NCBI GenBank assembly: GCA_038030265.1
Contig: CM075941.1
Span: forward strand, 19,406,001 to 19,470,000
Origin: Corythucha ciliata
Taxonomy: Eukaryota; Arthropoda; Insecta; Hemiptera; Tingidae
Direction: 5' to 3'
Length of the DNA stretch: 64,000 nucleotides
Made by a program: the position numbers and the translations under genes. The notes under the pieces were generated by a model that ran no database searches, was not told the DNA's origin, and was given only the letters and a program-made list of their open reading frames with translations. Below, in pieces: positions 105 through 60,870 of the stretch (positions are counted from its first letter, which is position 1; every line of letters starts with the position of its first letter).

Positions 105-112
105 TATAAAAA
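105..112 (+). promoter_or_regulatory. TATA box of the small secreted-peptide gene
   Basis: The motif TATAAAAA lies 52 bases upstream of the ATG at 164, which leaves about 25-30 bases to a start site near 133-137 and a 5' leader of about 30 bases. This spacing is normal for an arthropod TATA promoter. No consensus initiator is obvious. Confidence 0.7.
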
Positions 113-163
113 GAAGACCCTCGTAAAGCAACGATTCGAAGTCGTAGGAAACTTGGAAATATC

Positions 164-369
164 ATGGCTATGCCCGGAAAAGTGTTGTGTGCCTTCGCTG
201 TCGTTGCCGTACTCCTGGTAATTGTGTACCTATTTCTTGCCAATTAATTTTCACAGTTCACACACTCACGCTTTTTCTCTGTTTATAGGCTACGTTGGGT
301 CAAGTCCTGGCCGATGAAAAAAAGAAAACTGATCCTCTCACTGCTTTCTTAAATAAAATTGGTCGTTAG
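164..369 (+). CDS. two-exon gene for a 44-residue secreted peptide precursor
   Basis: Coding exons are 164-217 and 289-369; the 71-base intron 218-288 begins GTAATT and ends TTTATAG, and splicing is in phase 0. The spliced product has 44 residues. Residues 1-26 form a textbook signal peptide (start MAMPGKV, then a hydrophobic core of Ala, Val and Leu, ending in VLA), with predicted cleavage before Asp27. The mature part would be only 18 residues, DEKKKTDPLTAFLNKIGR: a charged head, then an amphipathic tail. It ends in Gly-Arg just before the stop, which in other precursors is an amidation signal after carboxypeptidase trimming. A TATA box at 105 and an AATAAA at 677 frame one compact transcription unit. 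Without splicing the frame stops after nine more hydrophobic residues. I do not recognise the family; secreted regulatory, salivary or defence peptide are all possible. The gene structure is seen; the function is unknown. Confidence 0.75.
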
Positions 370-699
370 TTGTGATGATGCTACGATAGTAACGTACTGC
401 TCAGTTGCCAACCCTTACCAAAACACAGAATACAAATAACCTAACATGTTAGAAAGAAGAGCATGGTGATGTGTATGTTCAAGTCTTTTGTAATCAATTG
501 ACTGAAAAAGTAGTGACGTCTCATCACATAACTCACTTTCTAAACAAACTGTAAATACGGTAAATTTCGTAGGCTCGCAATTATAAACCACTGTAGTAAG
601 CTCTTGAAGAAAATTGTTGGTTTTGTTTGGAAAGTGCCTACGGCGACGTTAGACACTTTTTCAGTCAATTGAATTAAATAAACGTACTCACAATCCACT
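370..699 (+). other. 3' untranslated region and poly(A) signal of the secreted-peptide gene
   Basis: About 320 bases of AT-rich non-coding sequence follow the stop. An AATAAA lies at 677-682, so cleavage would fall near 695-705, exactly where the downstream SINE inserted (target duplication 692-699). No other frame of interest is seen here. Confidence 0.55.
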
Positions 700-2129: not shown

Positions 2130-3635
2130 GTTTGAATTGACGATTCACCCCCTAATAATAGCAAAACTGACTACTCACGCTTTAAGAATGTCCTAAACTG
2201 ACTATTAAGGCAATGAAAATGGCCCACAAGTGACCATTCGCGTTCACTTCAGCGTTGAAAACGGCTGAACTACACATTTAGCTGCCTGAAATAGCCTAAC
2301 TACATGTATAGCAATGCACGCCCTGGAAATGGCAAACTGACCACTCCGTGCCCTGGAAATTGTTTTATTCGCGCCATAAAAGTGACAAAATATTGACAAT
2401 TTGCATCCAAAAAATTGGTTAGCCTGAAAATGGCTAAAACCGACCGTTCACATCCAAAAATGGCAAAACTCCGCACGTGCCAAATGACCTTACTGACTGC
2501 TGCAATTGCACCATAAAATCTAAATTGGCTGTTTACGCCCTGTAACTGGCTAAATGCCTCCAAATGCTAAATTGATGATTCGCGCCTTGAAAATGGTAAA
2601 AACGTGAGAATTTCGAATCCACAAAAGGTAAAACAGAACAGTAGAGCCATGAAAATGGCCGAACTGACAACTGCCGTCCAAAAAATAGACAAACTTCGCC
2701 TCCTAAAACTAGCCAAATTCATATACCATAAAAACAGCAAACTGACGATTTTCGTGAAAAATTGGCGAAACCGAAGATTTGGCTTAAACTCAATGGAAAA
2801 TGGCTTAACTGAATGTTGGCACCCTAGAATTGATTTAACAGTCGATTGTCGCCTTAAAAATGCCGAAACTGATTATTGAAATGACTAAAGCGATCATTCG
2901 CGCTAGAAAAAAAAATTGCCAACACAGACTATTCGCGCGATGAAAATGACCAAACTGACATTTTTAGCGCCCTGAACATGGATGACTGAAAACTGACAAT
3001 TTGCGTTCAAAAATGACTCGCGCCTTGAAAATGGTTGGATTCACATCCTTAAAAAATGGCAAAATATTGATATTTTGCGCCCAAAAAATGGTTAAACTGA
3101 CAATTCGGGCATTGAAAATGGCTATAACATACCGTTCACGCTTTAAAAATGACAAACTGACTATTCGCGCCTGACAAAGTCTTCTCTAAAAATGTCGAAA
3201 CGATGACGGCGAGCGAAAGACTGAAGAGAGACGATTCAAGCTCTGAAAATGGTCATATTGACGAGTTGCACCCTAAAAATAACCAAACTGGCTATTCACC
3301 TCCCCTAAAAATAGCCAAATCCATGCCATACAAAACAGCCAATTGACTATTTTCGTCCAAAAAATGGTGAAACTGAACGATTTGCGCCTTGGAAATGGCT
3401 TAAAAGAATGTTAGATCGCACCCCGAAATTGATTGTACCGACGATTTTCTCCTTAAAAATGTCAAAATTGTCTATTCAAACCCTGAAAACGGCAAAAGCT
3501 ATCATTTGCACTAAAAAAATGGCCCACACTGACTACTCACCCGATAAAAATGGCTAAACTGACATTCTAGCGCTCTAAAAGTAGACCAACTGTGGGAATT
3601 CACCACTCAAGACCTGGAAATGGTTTGAGTCTGAC
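2130..3635 (+). repeat. family A degenerate ~30-35-bp tandem array, forward
   Basis: About 45 diverged copies of a unit resembling GACTATTCGCGCC followed by CTGAAAATGGCTAAACT. The invariant parts are the AAAATGGC core, the AAACTGAC junction and a TTCGCG box; copies vary in length by several bases. Open frames inside (2300-2563, 2604-2879, 2964-3155) are products of the period and not genes. The same family recurs at 6.7 kb and, reversed, at 35.3-37.0 kb. Confidence 0.85.
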
Positions 3636-10646: not shown

Positions 10647-10896
10647 GCCATCGACGCGTCCAACAACCAGAACCAGAACTACCTACTGACATATTGCTTT
10701 TCTCGTCTAGTCAAGCAGAGGATCCCGTCAGAAATTCGTCAAAATCTATTCAAAACCCCTTCAAATAAATAATGATAACGAATCGAAAAAAAATTCTACA
10801 TTAATAATTATGTGAATTAATAAATTAATTAGACTGATATTATCCGGACGACGATGGAAGGGCATAGCCCAACACGATTCGAGTTTCGAGAAAAAT

Positions 10897-10967
10897 GGCT
10901 CCCCGGGGATTTGAACCCGAACCTCTGGATTACCAGTCCAGCACGCTGCCATTTGCGCCACGGAGAC
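10897..10967 (-). tRNA. tRNA-Thr(GGT)-like, probably degenerate
   Basis: The anticodon stem CTGGA/TCCAG encloses the loop CTGGTAA, giving anticodon GGT. This copy is 71 bases long and lacks 3 bases in the T-arm relative to its partner, leaving only a 4-bp T stem. The acceptor has a G-G mismatch at its first pair. A run of five T follows. Sequence around the D- and T-arms also resembles eukaryotic tRNA-Trp. Likely a pseudo-tRNA. Confidence 0.5.
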
Positions 10968-11040
10968 CCCTATGGGACCCAGGTCCATTGTTGGGTGGGG
11001 TTCGGCTTAGCTTATCCCTCGGAGTACGACTCCCATAGGC

Positions 11041-11114
11041 GTCTCCGTGGCGCAAATGGCAGCGTGCTGGACTGGTAATCCAGAGGTTGCGGGTTCAAAT
11101 CCCGCCGGGGAGCC
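11041..11114 (+). tRNA. tRNA-Thr(GGT)-like gene
   Basis: 74 bases with a D-arm (TGGCGCAAATGGCAGCG), an anticodon arm with loop CTGGTAA (anticodon GGT), an intact 5-bp T stem GCGGG/CCCGC with loop TTCAAAT, and a T6 terminator at 11116-11121. The acceptor pairs at six of seven positions; the first pair is G-G. Threonine codons ACC/ACT are normally read in eukaryotes by an AGT anticodon, so a GGT tRNA is unexpected. The GTGGCGCAA and AGGTTGCG segments recall tRNA-Trp. It may be a repurposed or inactive copy. Confidence 0.6.
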
Positions 11115-11195
11115 ATTTTTTCTCGAAACTCGAATCGTGTTGGGCTATGCCCTTCCATCGTCGTCCGGATAATATCAGTCTAATTAATTTATTAA

Positions 11196-12671
11196 GTAAA
11201 ATACCGGCGACAGATTTATTCATTATATCCATCTAATTATGTGAATTTTGAGTACCTACCTATTTTATAATTACTATTTGTTCATACAATAATAGAGTGT
11301 CCATAGGGGAGTGATGAACTCCATATAGTTTTCATCGAGGATTATCGGTAATCCACAAGTGCTTCTGCATACTCAACGAGCAGACAGACTCTCGAGGAAT
11401 CGAACAATTACACGCCTCAGACGACCCGGCGTATACCGTTGTCTTATACTATTATAAAATTTATGTAAATTTTATAGTGCTTTCGAACATGCATCCATAC
11501 ACAATCTTCATCACTTTCTTTCAGTGAAAAACATAAATACAGACATTTGGCGTAGGTATTTTAATCACTACTTTTGACTTAATGGGTCAACTAATGACTC
11601 TGCAGAAAAACTTGAAACTTTTGAAGAGTGTGGCTCTTCACTCTGCGAATCCATGCTTGGTGAAACAGAACTACATATTTTTTTGAAAAGTTAATAAGTT
11701 TTCACTTTGCACTTCACTTTTCCAACCACTTTTCAAATTCCTTTTGGAGGAATAGAAACTTTGCAGAAGAGTGCCGAGTTGTGAAATGTAGTGTTTTGCG
11801 TGAATGTGACTTGTTTGGTCTCCTCATGCTTAAACAAACGTTAGATGGCTGGCTTTTTTTTGACAATGATGGACTTGTGGAGGAGATCATGAGCAACAGC
11901 AGCGGCTTCTCACCCGCCCCGGTTTGGTTTACGTTGATGGGATTGAAAACTTGCTTATTTATATGGAAAAATGATGGTTTATAAAAGAAGGTGAGTACCC
12001 GCCGTAAAGCCGTGAATCCCGTCCCAAAATGTTTTTTTGCTTATGAATAAGCTTATGATACAGGCTGTTTTCTCTACACTAAGTCCAATTTTTCATCAGA
12101 AGCTGAACTCAATTGAGGACACTCACAACTAAAGCCTAGAACCGGAAACCTTCAATTTCAATTGCGAAGTAAACTAAAAACCAAAACCCTTGACATTTTG
12201 CTCCAGAAACACAGGTTTCGCTATAAATTCACCATTCTTCGACTTAAACCCTACAGAAACTGGATTTTTTCCCCCTTCTAGAAACTGACAATAAGCACCA
12301 GAAACTGACTCTTCGAGGCGAGCGTCAATCTAGAATTTATCCCCTAACTCGGCATGTGCACTCCTCCTCCCTAACAGTTGGTATTCAGAATCGGTAAAGA
12401 TTGGGTCCAGTTTCTTGCCCCCCTCCCAAGTATTGGAATTTTTGCGGTGTGATTTGGCCATTTAGACCGAGAAATGTTCCCGGATTTCCCGTAAAACTGG
12501 TTTTTTATATTACACGAGTAACACTGGCAGTGGGTATATCCATTTGGCCACAAAGCCGGGACTTTTGACCTGTAACTATCGCTTCTGGTCATTACACTGG
12601 CCACTATTGACTATTCAACTGCGTGGTAATTTTGCCCAGCAAAGCCTTTGGAAACGAAAAACATTTGCTTA
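11196..12671. other. gene-free stretch
   Basis: AT-rich sequence with only short frames. I see no splice context, RNA gene or element end. Confidence 0.35.
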
Positions 12672-12860: not shown

Positions 12861-14265
12861 CAGAATAAGAATTGACTTTCCGCAACAAAAATGACAATTT
12901 CTCGACGGAAACTAACTGTGCTCCAGAAATTTAGCTCTACTGAGCCTCATCTTGTGGCCACATAATCGCTAATTTTGATTTAATCAGTCCCAAAAACTCC
13001 TGGTAATTTTTTTAATACCGATTTATAGTGACCTGCAGTTATTTTCAATCCGAATAATAAATTCGTTTGAAACGCATTTAAATAGGTATGTATGTACTTG
13101 AAAACATTGCGAAACTCCTGGACGGCGCGGCGGACCCTCTTGCCTACCTCAAGGTCCACCACTTGCAACCCTACATGTACAAAATACTTAACAAATTTTG
13201 ATCACCGCGATGACTGATGAGTTGGATGGTCATTGAGGAAAAAAACGTTGAAAAATTCTGGCCGTACGCAGCTGCTCCCTTCACGCCAGGACAGAAACTA
13301 CTGTTACATTACCGACCATATACTTTTTCCCATCTCTCCCTGTATTATCGACTACTTCTGTGAGAACTGTGAAGCGGGCTCAGCTCAGACTAGTCAAAAT
13401 CGCATAGAACGGATACGAATTTTATTTTATTATTTAAAGAGGATTTTGTATAAACCATTTTAAGATTTTCTACTTTTCGCGTCAATTGAATTAAATTTAA
13501 ATTTGTCGATCAATTAGGTATAAATTGTTTAGTGATGCTGGCCCGAACAGGCTACAAAATTACTCTGGTATGTAAAACTTTGGTGAGGCGTCTTTGAAAG
13601 ACATTGGGCGTTAATCGTGCATGAAGGAAAGACGAGTTTACCTAAATATTGAGCCATAATTTACCATTTTTTAATATCCACCCCTATTTGTTCACGAAAT
13701 CATGGCCATGCTCGAGTTTGACCATAGTTAGATGGTTTTTAAAATTTAAAACAAACGAAGGGGCACGCACTTCGGCATATTTCATGGTATCAGTACCTGG
13801 CGAACGGGATAATTCTCCAAATGATGAGGAATTAAAATGAAAAATAAATCATGGAATGAAAAAGAGCAAACCTTCAGTAACCATTTTATGTGTTTGTTCG
13901 TTTCCGACCATTTATTAGCTAGAGTCAGCAAAGATTCTTGAACCACACGCCAATAAACTAATAAATCAATAAAAGGTAAGAAAAAGATAGAATTAACTAG
14001 TAATAAGTACAACAAGAAAGGCTACATGAAATTTTAAACCTGGGATTCATCACTATCCGTGCGTGGAACATTAAAGTATTAAGCTGCTTAAAGTTAAAAT
14101 ATCAAGTAGTTGAACTGAGGAGGCGTAAGGTAGGTTAGTGGAACAAGTTTTATGCATAACAATGTCATTCCGTGAAGATGAAGGGTGCTACCCACTTTTA
14201 TGTCGAACGTTGAATGATTATTAAAATCGTGAAAGCCGGTCATTCAACCGTAATTCAAATTGAAG
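12861..14265. other. gene-free stretch
   Basis: Nothing recognisable. Short frames on both strands without motif or codon bias. Confidence 0.35.
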
Positions 14266-50602: not shown

Positions 50603-52543
50603 GTGTTTTGCAAGCTGTTGGAGAGGATGGTTCTCAACCGGCTGAACATATTCCTGGAAGAACGGGGACTGCTATCCCACGCGCAGGCAGGATTCCGAGC
50701 ACACCGCAGTACCATGGAACATATTGCCCATTTGTCCCAAGAAATAAAGAACGGGTTCCAACGTAAACAAAGCTCACTGGCTGTGTTTGTGGATTTTAAA
50801 TCAGCATTTGATGTTTTCTGGCGGAAAAAGCTGCTCAGTAAGCTCCTGGAGCTGGGTGTGCATGGACATATGTACAGGTTTGTCGCCTCTTTTCTTGCTC
50901 AGCGCTTCACTAGGGTGCGATACAACAATGAGGTCTCAGTGTACAGACAGACTCGCCAGGGACTTCCGCAGGGCTCAGTGCTGAGCCCGACGCTGTTCAG
51001 CATAATGATTGATGATGTCATCAACCAGGTTACAAGTCCTGGAATTAACGCACTCCTTTATGCTGACGACTTGGTGATCTGGGGTACAAGCAGCTCGATT
51101 CAAGCCCTCGAAACCGCACTGAATGGAGCGTTGAGATCACTGGGTAGATGGGCTGCCGAAAATGAGATGACAGTGAGTCCAACTAAGACCATTTTTCAGC
51201 TGTTTAGCCTTTCCAAAAAGGAGCATTCCATCTCGCTCTTCTACAACTCTGAAGCCATCCCGAGAACATCGGAGGCAGTCTACCTGGGGGTGAGACTGGA
51301 CACGCAGCTCACCTGGAGGAAACATATTGATTCTCTGAAGGATAAAGGCCTGAATAGATGTAAATTGCTCAAGCGACTCACTGGTACCAAATGGGGTGCA
51401 ACTCAGGATGTCCTGGCCTTAACATACAAAACCTACGTGCGCCCTGTTCTGGAGTATGGATCTGAGGTTACTGTGACTGCTGCAGATACCCACCTCACAA
51501 AGCTGGAAAAAGCCCAGAACTGCGCCCTGCGAGTCGTAACAGGTGGCCCAAGGTCTACACCAATCACTGCAATGCAAGTCCAGTCGGGCATTGAACCTTT
51601 GAAGGACCGACAGCAGATAGCCTCTGTAATGTTGAGGGAAAGGCTGGCAAGGCTTAGTGATCCATACTGGACCGAGGACAACAGTGTGGCACCTAGACTG
51701 AAGACCCAGACAAGCTTCACTTCTGCAGTGGCAGGGATTGAGGAGGAGCATGCCATCTCTCTTGGCCCGAGAGAGGCTTTTCTTGGTTCAATGCCAATCC
51801 TGAGCACTCCCCGGCTAAGACTTGACCTCGTTAGAGAGGTTAGTAAGGAGCTGTGTTCATCCCAGGAGCTGAGATCCCTTGCCCTGGCGACTATAGAGGA
51901 GAGATATCCACCTGAAACATGGCTGCATGTCTACACTGACGGATCCGCCCAAAACTCGACCACCAATGCAGGAGCAGGAGTTTTCTCCAACTCTTTCCAA
52001 CTTAGTGCTCCCGTTGGACAGTCAGCCTCCAACTTTGACGGGGAGGTCGAAGCCATTTCTATGGCTCTGGGCGAGTGCCTGAGGAGAGCTGACACCAGAG
52101 TCGCAATTTTTGTGGACTCCATGGCAGCTCTCCAAGCCGTGTGTAACGCTAGAGGAGATGACGACAGTTCCATTGTGAGAAGGTCCAAGCAACGAGCACA
52201 CGAGCTGATCAGCAGAGGAGTGGAACTGGTGCTTCAGTGGATTCCCGGACACTGTGGAGTGTATGGGAATGAGGAAGCTGATCGTCTGGCGAGAGAGGGT
52301 GCCCTTTCCGCCCAATTTGAGAATAGCGTCACGTACCACACTTCCAAAAGAGATACTATTAAGACCTGTATTATGAAATCTTTGGAAGTAAGGCAGCAGC
52401 GGGAAGCTGAAGGTAGGAAGTGGCAATCACTGACTGTACAAAACGGACGGATTCCACATAACCTTCCTCGACAAGTAACTGTAGCCTGTTTCAGGCTAAC
52501 CACAGAGGCCATGACTACCTCCAAGGCCACCTGCACAGAATAG
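50603..52543 (+). pseudogene. reverse transcriptase-RNase H, partial ORF2
   Basis: 646 codons are open from the first in-frame ATG, but the true reading frame enters from upstream (KKGKSPTCPENFRPIAL at 50546-50599). Reverse transcriptase motif A is VFVDFKSAFD (about residues 54-63), the catalytic YADD is at residues 153-156 (51059-51070), and QGLPQGSVLSP lies between them. RNase H spans about residues 440-575, with YTDGSA, a Glu in EVEAIS, DSMAAL and NEEADRLA supplying the expected acidic set. A small insertion near 52505 shifts the frame and causes the stop at 52541. The shifted frame continues GHDYLQGHLHRIGVF to a CX2CX8HX3C knuckle and ends at about 52740. Codon usage is GC-richer than the surroundings. 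Confidence 0.9.
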
Positions 52544-52944: not shown

Positions 52945-53194
52945 TAGAGAACCTTTAAAACACAGGTATTGCAACACGGATTTCGGCGCCATATTTGGTC
53001 CCTCAGTCGTTAGGGTAAACACAATATCATGAATGAAAAAATTGTCATCGTAACAGCAAACAAACGCGGAACGCGGTCGAAATAAATAAAAATATCCTAC
53101 TTGTCAATGAGATCAGGTGACAACTATAATCATATGAGGGACCAAGTATGGCGCTGATTTGCGTGTTGCAGTACTCGTGTTTTATAGTGCCTTA
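52945..53194. mobile_element. inverted-repeat element with 7-bp duplication, copy B (250 bp)
   Basis: TAGAGAACCTTTAAAACACA at the left and, reversed, TAAGGCACTATAAAACACGA at the right. Inner pair CCATATTTGGTCCCTC. Flanks GTAATAG at 52938-52944 and 53195-53201. Closely related to copy C at 60621, same length, opposite orientation. Confidence 0.9.
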
Positions 53195-54253
53195 GTAATA
53201 GATGCTAAATTCCTCACCACAGTCACTACTGCCCTGTTTTTTTGTTTCATCTCTGCTTAATAGTTTCTTTCTACTCGTTTGTACGAAAATTCGAGAAATG
53301 CATTAAAACAAAAAATTAAACTAATAAGAATCATTAAACCAATAAAGTGGAATACCTATCAAGGAACCTATAAGGAAGAACAATATTACACAGTCCATCC
53401 AAGACTAGAACAATGTAAACTTAGCTATAATTATGTATAATGGATCAAATCCAAGGCAATTAACAAAGATTTCAAATGACATTAGGCAGTTTGATACCGC
53501 ACCAAAACAAAGAATAGCAGGAATTTATTATGAGGCAGTAATATACAGAAAATAATTACTTCAATGATTTATAAAAATCGGCATAAGTTGGTTTAATGTA
53601 TTTACTGTCGACTTTGGATTTTTTTTTTTTTTTTTTCTGGAATCGGTAACTGTGCCTGATACGCTTTTTTCACTGCCCACGCCCTGAGTTTCTCTTTCTG
53701 CTCTTCAGCACTCAGTGTAAATGACGACAGCCTAGTGTTTCTTTTCTGCTCAAGTCGGTTAATGTCAACGAAATCAAATGACTCTTGCTGATAAGAAGTT
53801 TTACATTGGAAAATGAACGGGTTTTCTTGGCACAGCTTATTACTTAGATGTCACTGAAATTGAATCATTGGTTGTCTTCGTTTAGACACAGTAAAATTGG
53901 TCCCCACTGAATGGCTCAGATCCTTGAAGTCAATGAAGTCCTTATGACCGAACTCGTTCACGACATGATACGGTGGTCTCTTCTTGGCTGCCTTCATGAT
54001 TTGATAATATTGCGAGGGAACGTAGATCGGACTAGCTTTAAGGGCTCTTGAGATTTCTTTTTCAATGAGGAAGTTACGTAAAAAATAAAAATCGCTGGAA
54101 ACATTTTTTTTTCGAAAGAAAATGACTTAATATGACCAGGAATTCAATATTAGTGCGTAAATGATTGATTTCGATTTATAGCGAAATAATGAAACTTGCC
54201 AATTTTTTTTGTTACCTTAAACGGCCGGTCTGTGACTCGTGACGTAGTTAAGG

Positions 54254-55888: not shown

Positions 55889-56617
55889 TCAACAAAACCG
55901 TTTTACAGCTAAACAAACGGAATCTTTAAGCTGAGCTCTTCGGACTTTATCCAAACTTGAGTCTAGCAATTCTGGTCCGCACACCTCAGTTACAAAAACT
56001 TCGACTTCCTTTTCAAAGAGAATATATTCCCTATTTTCACCATTTTGAACAGGTGCCCTTGAAAGTGCATCTGGACCATAGAATTTATTTCCCGAAACGT
56101 GAGTCAGTCGATAAATGAATTGCATCAAACTCATTCTAAAGCTTTGTATCCTAGCGGATAGTTAAACAATTGCTTTATTTCCTAATAGCGATACAAGAGG
56201 TTTGTGATCAGTTAGAATTTCAAATTCTGTCCCAATAAGTAAGTCCCTGAAGTGTTCACAGCCTCTAGTAACCCCTAATGCTTCTCTCTCGATGTTCGAA
56301 TAATTTTTCTCAGCTTTTGAAAGTCCTCTTGAGGCGTATTGGATAGGCTTCCATGACCCTGTGACTTGCTCTTGCTCTTGCCCCAAACCAATCATACTTG
56401 CACCTGCAGCTAATCTCAAGGGTTTATTCGGGTCATAAAAACTATGTACGGGCGTAGACGATAAAAGCAGTTTTATTCTTTGGAATGAATCATCTTGATT
56501 TGCATCCCAATACCATTCTGATTTCTTTGCAAGTAAATTACGGAGAGGTTTTGCGACAGACGATAATTGAGGGCAAAATTTGGCATAATAATTAGTCATC
56601 CCAAGAAACCGTCTCAA
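55889..56617 (-). pseudogene. gypsy RNase H region
   Basis: The frame 56617-56162 reads RRFLGMTNYYAKFCPQLS (thumb/connection) into the RNase H domain: YASRGLSKAEKNYSNIEREA and EILTDHKPLVSL. A stop follows, then the end of the domain (GNKFYGPDALSRAPV) in 56134-55889. The first catalytic Asp position appears as AAGASMIGLG (usually D-A-S), so an essential residue is changed. Confidence 0.8.
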
Positions 56618-59498: not shown

Positions 59499-60620
59499 AT
59501 CGTTGGTTTCGACTCATAATAAACCTTATCACCTCATCATCAACCACTAGAAAAGTTTGACATTATTGATACAAGTCCCAAGTTTTAGGGCAGTTCAGTG
59601 TTTTTCACATATTTTTAAAGTTTCTCTACGTAATAGTTAGTGTCGTGAAGACCAGATTCGCAATCGACAGGGGCTACTTGATTTTTTGAATCCGTCCGGC
59701 TTCAAATGAACATTATTTTTTTCACCAAGTCAAGTGGGGGGTTCAAGTGGGGAACGAGGACAGAACAGCTAGCCCTGTCTCGTTTTCGCAGTCGAAAACA
59801 GAAGCCTTACGCGCTTGCGCGTTGGTGCTTCCCCTCTCACCAATCCCCTCTAATTTTCATCATTGGAGCAATAATCCTCCAATCCAAGTTCCTCAGTTGT
59901 TCCCACTTCCCGAGCGAAATAGTGATTCAATGGTGCAAACTTAGCCATTTCATTTTAGTCAAAAACAAATAAAACAGCATAGTTTGCACCAAAGAAACCC
60001 TTCTTTCGCCAACAGGAATTACCTCACCTCATGTCTTTAGTACTTTTTGTCCCTTACCTTTACACAAAACCTCGAACGAATAAAGGGAAGAGAATGACTC
60101 AAAAATTCCAAACTTCTAGTTATTGCATTATTTATTTGATTCACGTAAATAAGTTCAATAATTAGATGCATTGACATTAACATGAGAAATTGCAAATTTA
60201 TACAATGCCTATAGCGCAACCAACTTTTGAATGCCGATATTACCTTTTACAAATCGAAATGAAATAGGTAACGATTATTTTTCGACGCGTTAAGTGATGA
60301 GAAGGAAAATGAACTGAACTGAGAACTCTACAAGTTACATGAATAAGAAACAGAAAGACGGACTTCAGTTTTCTTCAGACTTCACACTTCAGGCCGGCTA
60401 ACCTGGTGAAAGATGAAAAGTAAAGAAAACGTGTTACCATCTTCTGTCTCTCTCTTTTTCAAAACACCCCACAGTTTTCTGTCAATCTCATTGGCCGATG
60501 GTGGCGAAGTCTTCTTTTCGCAGTTAGAACCATGTCGTTACATTGAATACCTACTTGAAAAAAATCTCCCCCAAGTGTCTCTACCACCCACCCAACCGGT
60601 TAGACAGGGGTGGGCGCAGC
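59499..60620. other. gene-free stretch
   Basis: Short frames at 59706-59972 and 60413-60685 lack motifs; the latter runs into the next element. Confidence 0.3.
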
Positions 60621-60870
60621 TAAGGCACTATAAAACACGAGTACTGCAACACGCAAATCGGCGCCAAACTTGGCCCCTCATATGATTATAATTATCCTCT
60701 GATCTCATTGACAATTAAGATATTTTTATTTATTTCCACCGCGTTCCGCGTTTGTTTGCTGTTACGATGACAATTTTTTCATTCATGACATTGTGTTTAC
60801 CCTAACGACTGAGGGACCAAATATGGAGCTGAAATCCGTGTTGCAGTACGTGTGTTTTAAAGGTTCTCTA
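60621..60870. mobile_element. inverted-repeat element with 7-bp duplication, copy C (250 bp)
   Basis: TAAGGCACTATAAAACACGA at the left and reversed TAGAGAACCTTTAAAACACA at the right. The interior is shared with copy B in reverse (CGCGTTCCGCGTTTGTTTGC). Flanks GCGCAGC at 60614-60620 and 60871-60877. Confidence 0.9.

Follow-up and report, generated by a model that had tools for sequence, protein, structure and literature searches.

The 64-kb window (the whole stretch of DNA analysed) carries close to its beginning a compact gene model on the forward strand which is predicted to encode a short secreted peptide. A TATA box (TATAAAAA, 105-112, forward strand) was read directly 52 bases before the ATG and is the putative promoter element; the upstream DNA visible in the window before it amounts to 104 bases only. 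The predicted start codon at position 164 has an A at -3 and a G at +4, and no other ATG was detected within 105-163. The coding part of exon 1 (164-217, 18 codons) specifies the n- and h-region of the predicted signal peptide. It is separated by a predicted phase-0 intron of 71 nt (218-288, GT...AG) from the coding part of exon 2 (289-369), which comprises 26 codons and the stop codon TAG (367-369) and encodes the last part of the signal peptide, followed by DEKKKTDPLTAFLNKIGR. Splicing yields a frame of 44 residues, the preprotein MAMPGKVLCAFAVVAVLLATLGQVLADEKKKTDPLTAFLNKIGR, directly followed by the stop, while translation of the unspliced transcript would run into a stop inside the intron after 9 more residues. 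Poly(A) signals are located at 673-682 (ATTAAA at 673, AATAAA at 677-682). The TATA box, the intron and the joined frame had been proposed in an earlier sequence-only reading, and each of them was recovered letter for letter.

The donor site CTG/GTAATT reaches 5/7 on the consensus count, a score attained by 208 of the 6756 GTs in the window, both strands counted. The acceptor has a score of 16, which is reached by 78 of 6945 AGs counted in the same way. Both sites rank first in their surroundings, the donor among all donors in 105-420 and the acceptor among all acceptors in 241-420. Furthermore, the intron holds five matches to the branch-point pattern yUnAy, one of which (CTCAC) is located about 20 nt upstream of the acceptor.

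Two further promoter scans were discarded: the search for a kappa-B site in bases 1-163 returned only two overlapping matches with 2 mismatches, at 112-113, and a sigma-70 scan is inapplicable to an animal gene.

According to our own rule set, applied instead of SignalP, the preprotein starts with a putative signal peptide, as the sequence-only reading had assumed: its n-region is basic, its h-region has a mean hydropathy of 3.24 and the residues at -3 and -1 fit. The -3/-1 rule puts the cut at VLA^DE, with a charged tail directly after VLA. The codons for Gly-Arg and the stop occupy 361-369, so that the letters of the C-terminal amidation signal suggested earlier are indeed present, although two residues argue only weakly for amidation as such. 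A KKK run in the mature part, which had not been noticed before, provides a second possible processing site. Two amidated products are therefore possible, a 16-mer or, if the KKK run is cut, the 11-mer TDPLTAFLNKI-amide, with predicted monoisotopic masses of 1859.05 Da and 1230.70 Da, respectively. For the free acids, the predicted values are 1917.06 Da (17-mer) and 2073.16 Da (18-mer). In TDPLTAFLNKI, positions i, i+3, i+4 and i+7 are hydrophobic, and 4.3% of its permutations attain the same hydrophobic moment, the corresponding figure for the whole 16-mer being 21.8%. Summed over the side chains, the charge amounts to +2 in the 18-mer, to +1 in the 16-mer and to 0 in the 11-mer. A classical cationic antimicrobial peptide is thus not strongly indicated, and +1 or 0 would be a low charge for a peptide acting on membranes.

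Within the predicted 3'UTR lies a MITE-like foldback of 179 nt (494-672, no strand assigned) with perfect arms of 18 bp at 494-511 and 655-672; like the SINE-like element described below, it had gone unmentioned in the sequence-only reading. Folding was much better than in shuffled sequences both for the RNA of 470-700 (z -4.84, 0/200 shuffles) and for the DNA of 494-672 (z -4.20, 0/200). Perfect inverted repeats of at least 18 bases, spaced by up to 400 bases, gave 8 rows, which come from about 6 distinct loci in the window; since such elements are common there, a MITE-like origin of the foldback is likeliest. A microRNA-like reading is less likely, and no Rfam match was obtained at the foldback. 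A partial match to the foldback arm with 3 mismatches was detected at 13472-13489, and no clear target-site duplication around the foldback was seen by eye. A known structured RNA is not indicated at 1-1500 either, where Rfam returned no more than two rows, with E-values of 0.1 and 0.39, both far under their gathering scores.

Beyond the poly(A) signals and outside the coding gene, a tRNA-type SINE-like element is located on the reverse strand at 705-1018, with a box A, an exact box B, which is the sole exact match in the window, and an A-rich tail. Neither ARAGORN nor Rfam called a tRNA at this element, and the tRNA-type label thus relies on box A and box B. It is flanked by a direct repeat of 12/14 at 692-705 and 1019-1032, which was matched equally well by 11 of 2000 shuffled flank pairs. 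If the element is a SINE, its insertion took place at, or just beyond, the predicted poly(A) site; the T-rich sequence that follows AATAAA would then belong to the SINE tail and not to the original gene.

The window is also repeat-rich away from the candidate gene. Among 10 window ORFs searched against Pfam, 8 had no match at E 0.01, the exceptions being the following two. The ORF at 50603-52543 (646 residues) is predicted to encode an RVT_1 domain and an RNase H. It has 98 relatives, the top match showing 96% identity over 48% of the query, and among the named relatives those from Diaphorina citri and Trichonephila clavipes score best (41% and 39% identity, respectively); no relatives in prokaryote or viral contigs were confirmed. 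The ORF at 56162-56617 is predicted to encode an RNase H, which we take to be of the Gypsy type, and has 107 relatives with no animal name among the matches listed. On this basis the DNA is likely, though not certainly, from an arthropod. A large palindrome (10809-11203) bears two inverted tRNA-Thr (GGT) genes. The two copies of a diverged direct repeat, each about 330 bases long (2650-2976 and 3244-3579), are 71.5% alike and lie in a region (2650-3579) where the motif 'aaaatggc..aaactgac' was seen by eye to recur, possibly an old satellite, and a repeat of 251 bases is present in two window copies that are 94% identical (52945-53195 and 60620-60870).

The search for relatives of the preprotein covered mostly microbial collections with few animal sequences. 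No protein sharing three 5-residue words with the query was detected among about 5.8 billion proteins by a tool with little power for a query of 44 residues. Searches of Pfam and NCBIfam returned only rows below the cut-off (fvmX1, Bombolitin, CapE), and neither PHROGs nor PDB chains matched the 44-residue query. When TDPLTAFLNK together with the beginning of the following codon was searched as a degenerate pattern, there were 0 exact matches in viral and 0 in prokaryote contigs, as expected for an animal gene. No local paralogue or second copy was identified in the window, the best tblastn row besides the gene itself having an E-value of 0.37. Neither of two literal peptide strings was found in 5.39 million papers, and among the titles and abstract starts listed none describes the peptide. 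The earlier suggestion that the peptide is undescribed thus holds for the collections and the literature searched, and the term orphan applies to these collections, which contain few animal sequences.

Among known peptide systems, the short-form Bomanins of Drosophila are similar in build. They are described as very short secreted precursors with mature peptides of 16 or 17 residues, and signal-peptide removal together with C-terminal amidation is reported for a number of them (PMC4411088). The candidate would likewise be a very short precursor with a possible 16-residue product. However, the Bomanins share a common 16-residue motif containing CXXC, and most of them are encoded in a gene cluster (PMC4411088), whereas the candidate has no cysteine after the predicted cut (DEKKKTDPLTAFLNKIGR), and hence no CXXC, and stands single in the 64-kb window. 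Daisho1 of Drosophila is presented as a short, amidated and secreted immune peptide restricted to the genus (PMC6989431). The candidate, a short secreted and possibly amidated peptide, resembles it in build, and the name Daisho was absent from the protein and Pfam search results. The bombolitin-type amphipathic venom peptides (PF08096) resemble the candidate as short amphipathic peptides and by a weak Pfam row, but this row (E 0.18, 12.5 bits) stays below the gathering cut-off of 25 and its match spans residues 18-26, which is the end of the signal peptide. With amidated secreted peptides in general the candidate shares a rule-based signal peptide and a C-terminal Gly followed by a basic residue and the stop. 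On the best reading, the candidate appears to be built like the short-form Bomanins or Daisho1, and membership in either group is not claimed.

The chance expectation of the whole layout was estimated by scanning both strands of the window and of Markov shuffles, which do not mimic transposon remains. At moderate thresholds, picked after the gene had been seen, the layout was detected at 1 place in the window, compared with 0/20 order-3, 20/500 order-2 and 23/500 order-4 shuffles (43/1000 for the latter two pooled). At relaxed thresholds 2 places in the window, including the candidate gene, compare with 217/500 and 244/500 shuffles (461/1000). Splice sites and signal peptide, irrespective of TATA box or poly(A) signal, gave 5 window rows, the candidate gene itself contributing 2, compared with a mean of 1.0 per shuffle (n=20 shuffles). 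At strict thresholds, which were set post hoc to the candidate's own splice values, the layout occurred in 33/2000 shuffles without a TATA box, in 2/2000 with a TATA box and in 0/2000 with both a TATA box and a poly(A) signal. Shuffles thus seldom contain the layout when thresholds are moderate or strict and often do when they are relaxed; a chance origin is unlikely but possible, and the answer varies with the strictness of the thresholds.

Taken together, the layout scan, the shuffle counts and the ranking of the splice sites support the compact secreted-peptide gene model of the sequence-only reading. The locus is probably a real gene, and it is fairly likely that this gene makes a secreted short peptide. 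The presence of a TATA box, a first ATG, a splice pair, a signal peptide and a poly(A) signal in the order expected of a gene, the rarity of this arrangement in shuffles at moderate and at strict thresholds, the high ranks of donor and acceptor in the window and the charged tail after VLA argue for a real gene. The strongest competitor, which we consider less probable though serious, assumes no coding gene at all: either the signals are lined up by chance in intergenic DNA rich in repeats, or the transcript is non-coding and its short frame non-functional. It would agree with the frequency of relaxed layouts in shuffles and the occasional moderate one, with the lack of a detected homologue and with the repeats in and directly at the 3' part. 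However, no shuffle combined the observed splice strength with a TATA box and a poly(A) signal (post hoc), and the absence of an upstream ATG also speaks against it. A fragment of a transposon protein was rejected, given that neither a Pfam match above the cut-off nor a protein candidate was obtained and that the reverse-transcriptase ORFs are located elsewhere in the window.

If the gene is real, transcription would start from the TATA box of the compact gene, a single splice would take place inside the signal-peptide coding sequence and polyadenylation would follow near 690-700. The 44-residue preprotein would enter the secretory path, and the cut at VLA^DE would free DEKKKTDPLTAFLNKIGR. Transcription, splicing and cleavage are all predicted here from the sequence layout. 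Removal of the last Arg and amide formation from the Gly would probably follow, giving the 16-mer, while a cut at KKK could yield the 11-mer amide instead; amidation itself is suggested with caution and may well not occur. The face formed by L9, F12, L13 and I16 can form an amphipathic helix, and the most likely action would be that of a lineage-restricted extracellular effector in defence or gland secretion. The unusual hydrophobic moment of the 11-mer favours this explanation. It is weakened by the lack of relatives in the collections searched, by the frequency of the relaxed layout in shuffles, by strict thresholds that were set on the candidate, by the ordinary moment of the 16-mer and the low charge of both amides, by the absence of a second copy in the window and by the short upstream stretch.

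Alternatively, the peptide might be made but not amidated, or tethered via an uncut signal anchor, with the terminal Gly-Arg due to chance. A two-residue end arises easily in this way, and relaxed shuffles contained chance layouts ending in Gly, Gly-Lys or Gly-Arg in 9/500 and 16/500 cases; we nevertheless regard this scenario as rather unlikely, since VLA^DE obeys the -3/-1 rule and the charged tail follows immediately. A neuropeptide-type precursor, in which a convertase cut at KKK and trimming of the end by a carboxypeptidase release TDPLTAFLNKI-amide (11 residues) as a hormone acting on a receptor, seems improbable: KKK, the 11-residue stretch and Gly-Arg-stop do form a possible processing layout, but KKK is an atypical cleavage site compared with Lys-Arg, the peptide is present once in the precursor and no known neuropeptide matched in Pfam. 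For a real gene, an extracellular effector is favoured moderately over a hormone, and a gland or venom role may also apply. The more far-reaching view of a new, lineage-restricted peptide family, in which one 44-residue precursor gives rise to the 16-mer and the 11-mer amide as alternatives and mobile elements have reshaped the 3' end of the transcript (foldback in the 3'UTR, SINE at the poly(A) site), is speculative and has a low probability.

If the locus does not represent a real gene, it would provide a measured case of how frequently 64 kb of DNA yields this kind of layout by chance. If it does, it would encode an orphan secreted peptide with defined masses to seek. Genes this small evade ordinary gene calling, and secreted peptides of this kind may therefore be absent from arthropod annotations.
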